A DNA stretch of 44,577 bases from assembly GCA_022703625.1 (NCBI GenBank), contig JAKLDH010000008.1, positions 1 to 44,577 of the forward strand, written 5' to 3'. The notes under the pieces were generated by a model. It ran no database searches and had not been told where the DNA came from. It was given only the letters and a program-made list of their open reading frames with translations. Shown piece after piece: positions 12,499 through 15,376 of the stretch (position 1 is its first letter; every line of letters starts with the position of its first letter). Origin of the DNA: Cyanobacteriota bacterium (GTDB taxonomy: Bacteria; Cyanobacteriota; Vampirovibrionia; Gastranaerophilales; UBA9971). Made by a program: the position numbers and the translations under genes.

Positions 12499-13190
12499 AT
12501 GAATCTAAAGATTATAAAAACAAATAGGGGGGGGGTAAGTCCTTAAAGGGTTTCACTCTTGCGGAAGTTCTTGTGGTCATTTTTTTAATAGGCGTTATCG
12601 CAGGAGAAACAATCCCTGTTCTTCTTACAACTTATCAGGAAAAAGAACTTTTAACCAGATGGAAAAAAACATTTAGCGTTATTAGCCAGATTACTGTTTC
12701 TCTTAACGATAATGGGAATAATTCTTCTATAAATTGGGGGCTGGTTCCTCCTTTAACATTTAAAAATTATTATAAACAAAATCTCAATGTTCTTGGAGAT
12801 GCTTTAGCTCCTGCTTTTTTTGCGCCTACTTTTCATCCTTATAAAAATACGTCTGTATCATTTGGAATTACAGATACTTACGCATTAATATTAGCTGACG
12901 GCGTTACTCTTTATTTTAACTCAATGTTAAGCAACTGCGGTTTTCCAAGTGGAACCCTTGCCAATATGTGCGGATATATAATAGTGGATGTAAATGGAAA
13001 AAATGGACCAAATATGATCGGCAAAGACTTTTTCCAAATTATAATCGCCAAACCAAATGGTTATTATATCGCTGTTCCCGCTGGCGGTAACGGAAGCGCT
13101 GGAACATGCGTAGCTGGTTCAAACAGTGTGGATAGCCTCGGTTGCTCTGCTAAAGCTCTCCTCGCCAAAACCCCGGCGGACATGCCGTAA
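12499..13190 (+). pseudogene. Type IV pilin-like gene, unit 1, frameshifted in a poly-G tract (possibly phase OFF)
   Basis: From the ATG at 12499 (GGGGG upstream) the frame matches the intact neighbour at 13633 but hits a stop after 15 codons, because the G tract here has 9 G instead of 10. One base of slippage restores the prepilin: leader, KGFTLAEVLVVI cleavage site (G|F with Glu at +5), the hydrophobic helix, and a C-terminal domain with CGYIIVDVNG, PNMIGKDFF and the tail LLAKTPADMP. A GTG at 12573 could restart translation, but only inside the helix, without the signal. It is either phase-variable, a pseudogene, or a homopolymer sequencing error. Confidence 0.8.
12528..12536 (+). repeat. 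Homopolymer G9 tract in pilin gene 1
   Basis: Nine G residues follow AAATA within codons 10-13. The paralogue at 13633 has ten at the same place, so this tract sets the reading frame of the whole mature protein. Confidence 0.9.
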
Positions 13191-13201
13191 AAGAACCTTT
13201 G

Positions 13202-13306
13202 CTAGCCCTGCGGAGCCTCGTCATCTCTTGTAATTATATATGTATTATAAATAAAACCGCCAATAAGGGCGACAAAAAGAATTCCTAAAACTATATATTC
13301 ATTCAT
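13202..13306 (-). CDS. 34-residue single-TM microprotein, cassette unit 1
   Basis: A tiny gene whose ATG overlaps the TGA of the preceding 79-residue gene (ATGA at 13303-13306), suggesting translational coupling. The product is MNEYIVLGILFVALIGGF followed by a short polar tail ending RDDEAPQG. That is one membrane helix and an acidic C-terminus. A homologue occupies the same place in unit 2 (14340-14447, tail QDDEAQQG) and a decayed one in unit 3 (about 15256-15376). Conservation of the tail and of the coupling across copies argues that it is a real gene. It ends 11 bp from the stop of the convergent pilin gene. Its function is unknown. Confidence 0.65.
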   Translation of the reverse strand: MNEYIVLGILFVALIGGFIYNTYIITRDDEAPQG

Positions 13307-13542
13307 TTTTCAGCTTCTCCAATTTTTTTCATTTCTTTTATCAAACGATAAGCTTTAAGATTAATTATAGAAACTATTATAATCAGCGCTATTATTGTTA
13401 ATATAACAATAATATTAAAAAAAATCGATATTTTACCCCAGTTATTAACAATCCAGGCTGTACTGCCAACAACTACAGCCATAAATAGCGTGATCCACAG
13501 CTTTAATAAACTTATTTTTTCTTTTAAAAAATCTTTATTCAT
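13303..13542 (-). CDS. 79-residue two-TM membrane protein, cassette unit 1
   Basis: A small basic-ended protein with helices at about 13-33 (LKLWITLFMAVVVGSTAWIV) and 39-62 (FFNIIVILTIIALIIIVSII), then a charged tail (RLIKEMKKIGEAEK). No family is recognised. A decayed paralogue in unit 2 (14437-15186) keeps both helices and the KLIKEIKNIGE tail. There is no Shine-Dalgarno site, but a perfect TATAAT lies at 13549-13554, placing the start of transcription at about the A of the ATG, so the mRNA may be leaderless. It is followed, with overlapping stop/start, by the 34-residue gene. Confidence 0.7.
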   Translation of the reverse strand: MNKDFLKEKISLLKLWITLFMAVVVGSTAWIVNNWGKISIFFNIIVILTIIALIIIVSIINLKAYRLIKEMKKIGEAEK

Positions 13543-13632
13543 ATTTTAATTATACATTAATAAAAACTTTTTAAAGATTTTTATCAATAAAGACGATATA
13601 ATTAATAAAATAAACATAAAAAAAGGCCTTAA

Positions 13633-14328
13633 ATGAATCCAAAGATTATAAAAACAAATAGGGGGGGGGGTAAGTCCTTAAAGGGTTTCACGCTCGCTGA
13701 AGTTCTTGTTGTAATCTTTTTAATAGGCGTTATCGCAGGAGAAACAATCCCTGTTCTTCTTACAACTTATCAGGAAAAAGAACTTTTAATCAGATGGAAA
13801 AAACAATACAGCATAGCAAGCCAAGCAGTAATTAGCTTACAAAATCAAAACGGCGACATTTATCACAGTAATCATTTTGCCATAAGAAACCAATTTTGTT
13901 CTATCATGAATTGTATGAAAAATGGAGAAACCCAAACTTTACTAACAGCGCAACAAAGACAATATAATTTATATAAAAGTTCTAATTCATACACGGCATT
14001 GGCCCTGTATGAACTAACAGCAATAATGTCAGACGGAAGTTTATGGGTTTTTTTGCAGGATTTTGATTCTGGCGCTTGTCATTTCCCTGGTGTCGGCATA
14101 TCTGATGCATGTGGAACTATTATTATTGATGTAAATGGCGCTAAAAAACCTAACATGAGTGGTAAGGATTTATTTTATATATACCTCAGAAAAAGTCAAA
14201 CTAATGGACTTTTTTATATAACACCTTATGGAACTTTAAATGACGGGTGGTCATGCGCTGCGGAAACACATGGAAAAGGTTGCTCCGCTAATGCCCTGCT
14301 CGCCAAAACCCCCGCTGAGATGCCGTAG
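13633..14328 (+). CDS. Type IV pilin-like protein, unit 2 (in frame, G10)
   Basis: A 231-residue prepilin. The leader (MNPKIIKTNRGGGKSLKG) contains RGGG encoded by the G10 tract. The site KGFTLAEV (cleavage between G and F, Glu at +5) and a helix of about 22 hydrophobic residues follow. The globular part includes a Cys pair region, CGTIIIDVNGAKKPNMSGKD and the tail LLAKTPAEMP. Mature protein would sit in the inner membrane or a pilus/secretion pseudopilus. The first ~165 bases are nearly identical to gene 1, but the middle diverges, suggesting gene conversion or recent cassette duplication. The Shine-Dalgarno site is weak (AAAGG). Confidence 0.88.
   Translation: MNPKIIKTNRGGGKSLKGFTLAEVLVVIFLIGVIAGETIPVLLTTYQEKELLIRWKKQYSIASQAVISLQNQNGDIYHSNHFAIRNQFCSIMNCMKNGETQTLLTAQQRQYNLYKSSNSYTALALYELTAIMSDGSLWVFLQDFDSGACHFPGVGISDACGTIIIDVNGAKKPNMSGKDLFYIYLRKSQTNGLFYITPYGTLNDGWSCAAETHGKGCSANALLAKTPAEMP
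13661..13670 (+). repeat. Homopolymer G10 tract in pilin gene 2
   Basis: Ten G residues encode part of Arg-Gly-Gly-Gly in the leader peptide. Loss or gain of one base would truncate the protein before the prepilin cleavage site. Confidence 0.9.
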
Positions 14329-14339
14329 AAGAATCTTTG

Positions 14340-14447
14340 CTAGCCCTGCTGAGCCTCGTCATCCTGGGTAATATATAGCGTTATATATAAAAAACCACCA
14401 AGTAAAATTAATATAGTAGTTGCCATAATTATAAAATTAATTGTCAT
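14340..14447 (-). CDS. 35-residue single-TM microprotein, cassette unit 2
   Basis: A homologue of the gene at 13202-13306. It has one hydrophobic helix (FIIMATTILILLGGFLYI) and ends QDDEAQQG. AGGAG lies seven bases before the ATG. In unit 2 the preceding 2-TM gene is broken, so this microprotein would now be made alone, if at all. Its 3' end lies 11 bp from the pilin stop, the same geometry as unit 1. Confidence 0.6.
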   Translation of the reverse strand: MTINFIIMATTILILLGGFLYITLYITQDDEAQQG

Positions 14448-14587
14448 TTTTTTCTCCTATATTTTTGATTTCTTTAATTAATTTATAAGTTTTTTTAGTG
14501 GCAAGAGCAATAAAAATAAAAATTAAAATAATTACGCTCAATACAAAAAGAATTTTATAAAAACCAATTTTTTCATAATTAATGAAT

Positions 14588-14890
14588 TACCCCGCAGCAG
14601 AGCTGACGAGGTATCTGACAAAATCGTCATGCTGAATCCTGAAACAAGTTTAGGACAGGCTTTGTTTCAGCATCTGTCCAATAGGGCTTATAATCTTTAG
14701 GCAAAAGCTGGACAGACCCTGAAATAAATTCAGGGTGACGCATATTGTCATGCTGAACTTGTTTCAGCATCTTTCCAGCATGCAACTATAAGCATTCCTG
14801 CCAAATTGGACAGACTCTGAAATAAATTCAGGGTGACATTTGGGTTCAGGGTGACAAAACGCAGCAAAGCTGCGGAGAATTTATCCCTCA
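14588..14890. repeat. Inserted composite hairpin repeat (GTCATGCTGAA family)
   Basis: The element is bounded by CGCAGCAGAGCTG and CGCAGCAAAGCTGCG. It holds two long imperfect hairpins (14627-14743 and 14748-14837), each opening GTCATGCTGAA and closing TTCAGGGTGAC. Pieces of the same family lie at 15026-15119, in the MITE at 26490-26505 and at 41680-41690. This class of repeat is common in several bacterial groups and codes for nothing. Confidence 0.75.
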
Positions 14891-14964
14891 GAGATTAAAA
14901 AACCAGGCAGAAGCACCAACTTCCATCGTAAGGAAAAAAGCTACATACAGCTTTAAAAAACTTA

Positions 14965-15155
14965 GAAGCTGTCTTGCTAAAAAAGAAAATTAAATAACTA
15001 ACAGCGTGTAAAATATGCCAAATAACGTCATGCTGAACTTGTTTCAGCATCTATCCAATAAACAATTATAAGCAATAATCCGAAAGCTGGAAAGATCCCG
15101 AAACAAGTTCGGGATGACGGTTTTCATTTACTAAATATTTTAACAAGACAGCTTC
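14965..15155. mobile_element. 191-bp MITE-like element with 3-bp target duplication
   Basis: The terminal inverted repeats read GAAGCTGTCTTGCTAAAA and, on the other end, GAAGCTGTCTTGTTAAAA (one mismatch). Both ends are flanked by TTA. Comparison with the intact paralogue shows that removing the element and one TTA restores the gene, so this is a clean transposition event. It codes for nothing and carries one GTCATGCTGAA hairpin (15026-15119). A 3-bp TNA-type duplication is typical of some IS5-group elements. Confidence 0.75.
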
Positions 15156-15220
15156 TTATTTTTTCTTTTAAAAATTCTTTATTCATATCAAATAAATTAT
15201 AACTTATTTATTTTAATATA

Positions 15221-15259
15221 CAAGCAACCCTCGCCAAGACCGCCGCTGAGATACCTTAA
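15221..15259 (+). pseudogene. Remnant of a third pilin-like gene (last 12 codons)
   Basis: The bases translate to QATLAKTAAEIP and stop, matching the LLAKTPAEMP tail of the two pilin genes upstream. The body of the gene is missing; the remnant starts only 34 bp from the start of the broken 2-TM gene. Confidence 0.65.
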
Positions 15260-15376
15260 AAGAACCTCTGCCAGCCCTGTGGAGCCTCGTCATCTCTTGT
15301 TATTAATATGTTATATAAATAAAACCGCTTTGATAGTATAGTTAATATAGCTATTATAAAAAAGTCAGAAACATTA
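15256..15376 (-). pseudogene. Decayed third copy of the single-TM microprotein
   Basis: The minus-strand frame reads DFFIIAILTILSKRFYLYN then ITRDDEAPQG. The stop codon seen in the other copies (GGC TAG) has become GGC TGG, so the frame runs on to a TAA overlapping the pilin remnant. The in-frame start is lost. It overlaps the first codons of the downstream glycosyltransferase only at its far end. Confidence 0.55.

Follow-up and report, generated by a model that had tools for sequence, protein, structure and literature searches.

The stretch of DNA analyzed here (the window) comprises the 44,577 nt of contig JAKLDH010000008.1 from a Cyanobacteriota bacterium (assembly GCA_022703625.1; contig C145 of the 2.5-Mb genome G000). 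The element in question is a pair of small minus-strand genes predicted to encode a protein with two transmembrane helices (2-TM) and a peptide with one (1-TM), which in the window faces pilin-like genes in three successive units. The features of these units, including open reading frames (ORFs) and a sequence resembling a miniature inverted-repeat transposable element (MITE), are as follows.

12499..13190, plus strand: pilin-like gene of unit 1; N_methyl match above cut-off; reading from the ATG ends just past a G9 tract (12527-12535)
13202..13306, minus strand: 1-TM gene of unit 1; 34 aa; start codon overlaps the 2-TM stop codon (ATGA)
13303..13542, minus strand: 2-TM gene of unit 1; intact at 79 aa; leads the cassette
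13549..13554, minus strand: -10 box TATAAT of unit 1; its end lies 6 nt upstream of the 2-TM ATG, which predicts a leaderless start
13633..14328, plus strand: pilin-like gene of unit 2; 231 aa; PF07963 at 23.5 bits; in frame through a G10 tract (13661-13670)
14340..14447, minus strand: 1-TM gene of unit 2; 35 aa, intact ORF; separated by 11 nt from the pilin gene
14437..14541, minus strand: surviving C-terminal part of the 2-TM gene of unit 2; tblastn match at 14449-14631 with one stop
14956..15164, plus strand: MITE-like element; 27-nt inverted ends, 89% complementary
15157..15186, minus strand: displaced scrap from the N-terminus of a 2-TM gene (MNKEFLKEKI), which the MITE-like insert cuts
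15221..15345: scraps of unit 3, the pilin C-terminus on the plus strand and the 1-TM C-terminus on the minus strand

The repeated arrangement of pilin-like, 2-TM and 1-TM genes is real. The coordinates bear out the original prediction, made from the window alone, of a three-unit repeat in which pilin-like genes lie 11 nt from minus-strand small genes (in unit 1 the pilin ORF stops at 13190, 11 nt from the convergent 3' end), and likewise its description of an intact pair in unit 1, an intact microprotein beside a broken 2-TM gene in unit 2 and only scraps in unit 3. Two details need amendment: the 4-nt ATGA overlap claimed for the small genes applies to unit 1 alone, where it joins the 79-aa and 34-aa ORFs, unit 2 having a longer one; and the pair of unit 1 is intact, but its pilin is out of frame with its own ATG (G9, as against G10 in unit 2). 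The two pieces of the 2-TM gene in unit 2 are set apart by dispersed palindromic repeats and the MITE-like element. In unit 3, the pilin tail (~15221-15258) reads LAKTAAEIP followed by a stop, and of the 1-TM protein the C-terminal part alone is left (ending in LITRDDEAPQG and a stop). Good alignment between units 1 and 2 is confined to the pilin N-terminus and the convergent junction, with divergence in between, so the repetition is an old local duplication of one block.

Comparison with related genomes shows that the 79-aa and 34-aa genes form a real, conserved and probably co-acting pair, as supported by homology across genomes, near-constant coupling and mostly purifying selection, and we consider it very probable that this pair is an autonomous conserved cassette. 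The fetched loci contain 65 full-length 2-TM genes, of which 62 have a downstream 1-TM candidate, with inspection adding one more (L128). Under strict rules (ATG start, 25-55 aa, -14 to +7 nt), a coupled 1-TM ORF follows 60/65 full-length 2-TM genes but only 1/327 control genes (genes of at least 150 aa in the same loci). The two genes overlap by 4 nt at 13 loci, and coupled 1-TM ORFs were also found at further loci outside the profile-building set; the pair is a two-gene operon, often translationally coupled, as in toxin-antitoxin (TA) modules. A Ka/Ks check revealed constraint, with ratios of nonsynonymous to synonymous substitution rates (dN/dS) of 0.12-0.39 for the 2-TM gene in all pairs with finite dS and mostly below 0.6 (one value of 1.0) for the 1-TM gene, many dS values being near saturation; these values indicate that both genes are mostly under purifying selection. 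Similarity among 2-TM proteins is correlated with similarity among their 1-TM partners (Mantel r = 0.34; r = 0.25 once redundancy is removed; 0/2000 permutations each). Decayed copies have the 2-TM gene broken more often than the 1-TM gene, as length predicts. The 2-TM protein is predicted to form a helical hairpin (residues 2-33 and 40-78; mean predicted local distance difference test score of 78 from an alignment of only four sequences) with positive net charge at both ends, and the 1-TM protein is on average slightly negative on its N side and slightly positive on its C side.

The two genes also differ in their expression signals. A -10 box (TANRAT) ends 6 nt before the 2-TM start in 29/65 members and 7 nt before it in 8/65 (37/65 combined), as compared with 5/262 control ORFs at each spacing (10/262 combined). 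A Shine-Dalgarno-like motif precedes the 2-TM start in only 3/66 cases, whereas 59/62 1-TM starts carry one (91/262 controls), as scored with a slightly wider motif set. A -10 box lying 6-7 nt before an ATG without a Shine-Dalgarno motif predicts that the 2-TM gene is read from a leaderless mRNA, with the 1-TM gene translated via its Shine-Dalgarno sequence.

Copies were traced in related genomes and beyond. The 79-aa protein has a match in 9/9 other genomes of the family to which G000 belongs, in unrelated contexts, and among the closest relatives of the window pair are G003:C62 (~60% identity) and the equally close G001:C351. Each of the ten genomes of that family (f1) has 4-19 matches to the broad 2-TM profile A4, a count that takes in some decayed or weak matches, and the profile has matches in 74/383 genomes of the order Candidatus Gastranaerophilales. 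Copy number and location differ greatly between relatives, and the paralogues are strongly diverged. In the phylum sample outside the order, no match to profile A4 was listed at E <= 1e-5, and a single genome-contig scan for relatives gave close relatives only. One marginal A1 match outside the order has three internal stops and was rejected.

Among the plasmid and phage sequences searched by tblastn with single members and consensus queries, only plasmid ece1 of Aquifex aeolicus gave a credible homologue (E = 0.5 for a single-member query, E = 2e-3 for a consensus query), which profile comparison supports with a probability of 96.5% and E = 1e-9. On ece1 the 2-TM ORF is followed by a 34-aa 1-TM ORF, again with a 4-nt overlap, which is missing from the annotation table shown (a table known to be incomplete). 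The neighbours of the ece1 homologue are AbiEii, MazE-like and PIN genes.

Copies of the pair are inserted next to conserved genes as well as in prophages. Neighbours include atpA/atpG, atpD/atpC, leuC/leuD, rsfS, recA, obg, rfbC/rfbB and prophage structural genes, several of these gene names being our own reading of the sequence. For example, the slot between atpA and atpG holds the pair in G005, ParD/ParE (Pfam) in G006 and a lone pilin-like gene (Pfam) in G013, while seven other genomes have a short gap only; in G001 an XRE-type regulator lies upstream of atpG, with atpA outside the fetched stretch. This one ATP synthase intergenic slot (L153-L165) takes different cassettes: the pair, ParDE, a pilin-like gene and perhaps the XRE regulator. 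The ParD gene in the G006 slot has an apparent leader with a GAGG motif (read by eye), so that the leaderless feature seems not to be common to the ParDE module there. A further G005 copy lies between atpD and atpC (names again read from the sequence). Likewise, leuC and leuD are separated by the pair in G000, and the pair is absent from every other genome whose fetched stretch includes both genes, the gaps there being mostly 2-163 nt. The prophage contig G000:C112, identified by terminase, portal and maturation protease genes, contains three pairs as well as ParE, HEPN/MNT and HicAB modules, every one of them on the strand opposite to the structural genes, and a G003 copy lies beside a gene resembling a portal gene (L126); most copies are found outside recognised prophages. 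As is characteristic of TA modules, the pair is accessory, variable in copy number and location, and carried on mobile elements.

The original prediction held that the combination was not known from described systems, and this has stood: Pfam, NCBIfam, PHROGs and PADLOC contain no fitting family for either protein, and no description of the pair was found in the literature. Weak matches in these four libraries, to AA_permease, SLATT_4, a 2TM effector and others, were rejected as inconsistent between members and, where shown, below cut-offs. One 1-TM family member matches HOK_GEF at E = 0.013 only, without a significant Pfam match, and among 23 members there is one weak RexB-like PHROG match (E = 0.036).

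Multi-copy dispersal, a near-invariant pair, correlated partners, purifying selection, filled and empty sites and TA neighbours together lead us to propose that the pair is an undescribed accessory cassette, probably TA-like or defensive, a reading whose chances of being right or wrong we consider evenly balanced. Under this proposal, an autonomous cassette of ~350 nt, with a promoter whose -10 box lies 6-7 nt before the start codon, would encode a ~76-aa 2-TM hairpin protein read from a leaderless mRNA and a ~35-aa single-TM protein translated from a Shine-Dalgarno sequence inside the 2-TM gene. The cassette is dispersed as many diverged copies, which occur within core operons, in prophages and on at least one plasmid and share slots with TA modules, and it would most likely serve addiction or defence at the inner membrane. 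One of its two products (probably the 1-TM peptide, given its Fst/TisB-like build) would depolarise or permeabilise the membrane, and the cognate 2-TM partner in the same membrane would hold it in check. It should be noted that the pair, its coupling, selection, promoter signature, filled and empty sites and neighbours are observed, and that a physical interaction, toxicity, the identity of the toxic partner and a trigger would, like leaderless transcription, be additions of the model. More specifically, we tentatively suggest, as something rather less probable than not, that this is the first TA type to consist of two integral membrane proteins, with a pore-forming 1-TM peptide being neutralised in the membrane by its cognate 2-TM hairpin, with a leaderless first gene and a Shine-Dalgarno-led second gene in ~350-nt cassettes within core operons.

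Several points weigh against a TA-like or defensive role. Neither protein has a convincing match to a TA or defence family, and to our knowledge no described TA type consists of two membrane proteins, so that the analogy is one of lifestyle. Shared descent of whole cassettes may account for part of the Mantel correlation. The tight co-directional gene runs, with co-directional neighbours within 150 nt on both sides of 31/62 copies, would equally suit a regulatory or membrane-organising role, and the copy between rsfS and a TPR gene, which is kept in place in four family f2 genomes (L144, L145, L146 and L148), could also mean a housekeeping role; its retention suggests that this copy is possibly domesticated.

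The proposed cassette resembles several known systems in part. Like type II TA modules (ParDE, HicAB, HEPN/MNT, MazEF), it consists of two small overlapping or adjacent genes present in many diverged copies per genome and occupies the same slots (atpA-atpG, prophage antisense), its plasmid copy lying in a TA cluster; unlike them, both of its products are predicted integral membrane proteins, there is no sequence relation, and the promoter is of leaderless type. Type I membrane toxins (Fst/Ldr, TisB, Hok) are single-TM peptides of ~30-40 aa with a charged tail, a general build that the 1-TM peptide shares; their antitoxin is an antisense RNA, whereas here the partner is a second membrane protein, and a protein rather than an RNA partner is favoured because the second gene is conserved. 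In the type V system GhoT/GhoS, a small 2-TM membrane protein is likewise encoded with a partner, but GhoS is a soluble RNase and the partner here is a 1-TM protein; the likeness is a general one. RexB and holin/antiholin systems are also small membrane proteins carried in prophages; unlike these, most copies of the pair lie outside recognised prophages, and the RexB-like PHROG match stands alone.

An alternative that we consider unlikely is an anti-phage or superinfection-exclusion module without addiction, in which a two-protein complex would collapse the membrane potential on infection. The moron-like position of the three antisense pairs between the structural genes of the G000:C112 prophage, the portal-like neighbour of the G003 copy and the strong divergence of paralogues are consistent with such a role. 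On the other hand, many copies reside in core operons, PADLOC models gave only inconsistent weak matches and so identify no known anti-phage system, and neither tblastn of phage records nor motif scans of viral contigs turned up a homologue, although the motifs are too weakly conserved and the motif scans insensitive, so that absence from the scanned contigs means little. Quite unlikely, in our view, is a small regulatory or structural membrane module useful to the cell (for example, in envelope stress or in a membrane complex) that was amplified by duplication and kept by selection; purifying selection, tight co-directional placement in operons and the conserved rsfS-TPR locus would fit this explanation, but the great variation in copy number and location between relatives, the empty sites, the decayed copies and the plasmid occurrence in another phylum do not.

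The original prediction was that the pilin, 2-TM and 1-TM proteins work together to assemble or stabilise the pilin or to control its toxicity. Its favourable points are that the convergent geometry repeats in the window, that the pair at G003:C62, among the closest relatives, likewise lies convergent to a gene from the same pilin-like family, and that pilin adjacency modestly exceeds rough expectation (~4 versus ~1 expected, with an approximate P of 0.02 from post hoc counts). However, in the survey of related genomes, set as the test beforehand, the small genes were mostly located away from pilin genes: a pilin-like gene adjoins ~4 of ~95 copies in the family, leaving ~91 elsewhere, which is not the consistent genomic association expected of a pilin accessory. 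The adjacent cases are the window and G003:C62, the only convergent ones, and G000:C2 and G007:C82, where the pilin lies upstream on the same strand and the latter rests on a weaker 2-TM match. The equally close relative G001:C351 is not beside a pilin gene on its contig, and the ten f1 genomes contain ~124 N_methyl matches, most of which lack an adjoining pair. The threefold arrangement that was taken as a sign of joint action is a local duplication of one block, and one explanation that would suffice for the excess adjacency is that lone pilin-like genes and the pair share insertion slots, as at atpA-atpG in G013. The location survey thus largely refutes joint action with pilins, which we regard as very improbable, and the neighbouring pilins are mostly coincidental. 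Finally, the notion that the small ORFs arose by chance, as hydrophobic reading frames in AT-rich DNA between genes, fits their shortness, composition and hydrophobicity but is refuted by homology across genera and to the Aquifex plasmid, dN/dS mostly well below 1, coupling in 60/65 versus 1/327 cases, and the promoter spacing peak.

The family is a two-gene element with up to ~19 copies per genome that has no entry in the family libraries searched, and whose second gene is short enough to slip past annotation, as on ece1. The cassette accounts for the small membrane genes that break into conserved operons such as that of ATP synthase in these bacteria, and a 2-TM gene, a coupled 1-TM gene and a -10 box 6-7 nt before the ATG provide a signature for finding more. 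Should the two proteins prove to be a membrane TA pair, they would represent a mode of neutralisation that is new.

Other repeated elements were noted in and around these loci. The MITE-like element has near-identical copies in contigs C142 and C97 of the genome (L002-L004 at 96-99% identity). A dispersed palindromic repeat (GTCATGCTGAACTTGTTTCAGCATC...) at 14620-15120 is widespread on many other contigs of the genome, and an insert resembling it truncates the 1-TM gene in G001:C163. Small membrane-anchored, coiled-coil-like proteins of 93-99 aa are also dispersed (L118:11485-11784 and L141:6088-6369, one in the prophage and the other near a pilin gene) and are possibly another accessory cassette. 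With regard to the pilin genes themselves, which carry these tracts at their start, the G10 tract of unit 2 keeps the frame and the G9 tract of unit 1 does not, and a third pilin gene has a G9 tract at G000:C2:8433-8441. Since only six loci in the 2.5-Mb genome have at least nine G in a row, the G-tract pilins may be phase-variable, homopolymer assembly error being an alternative.

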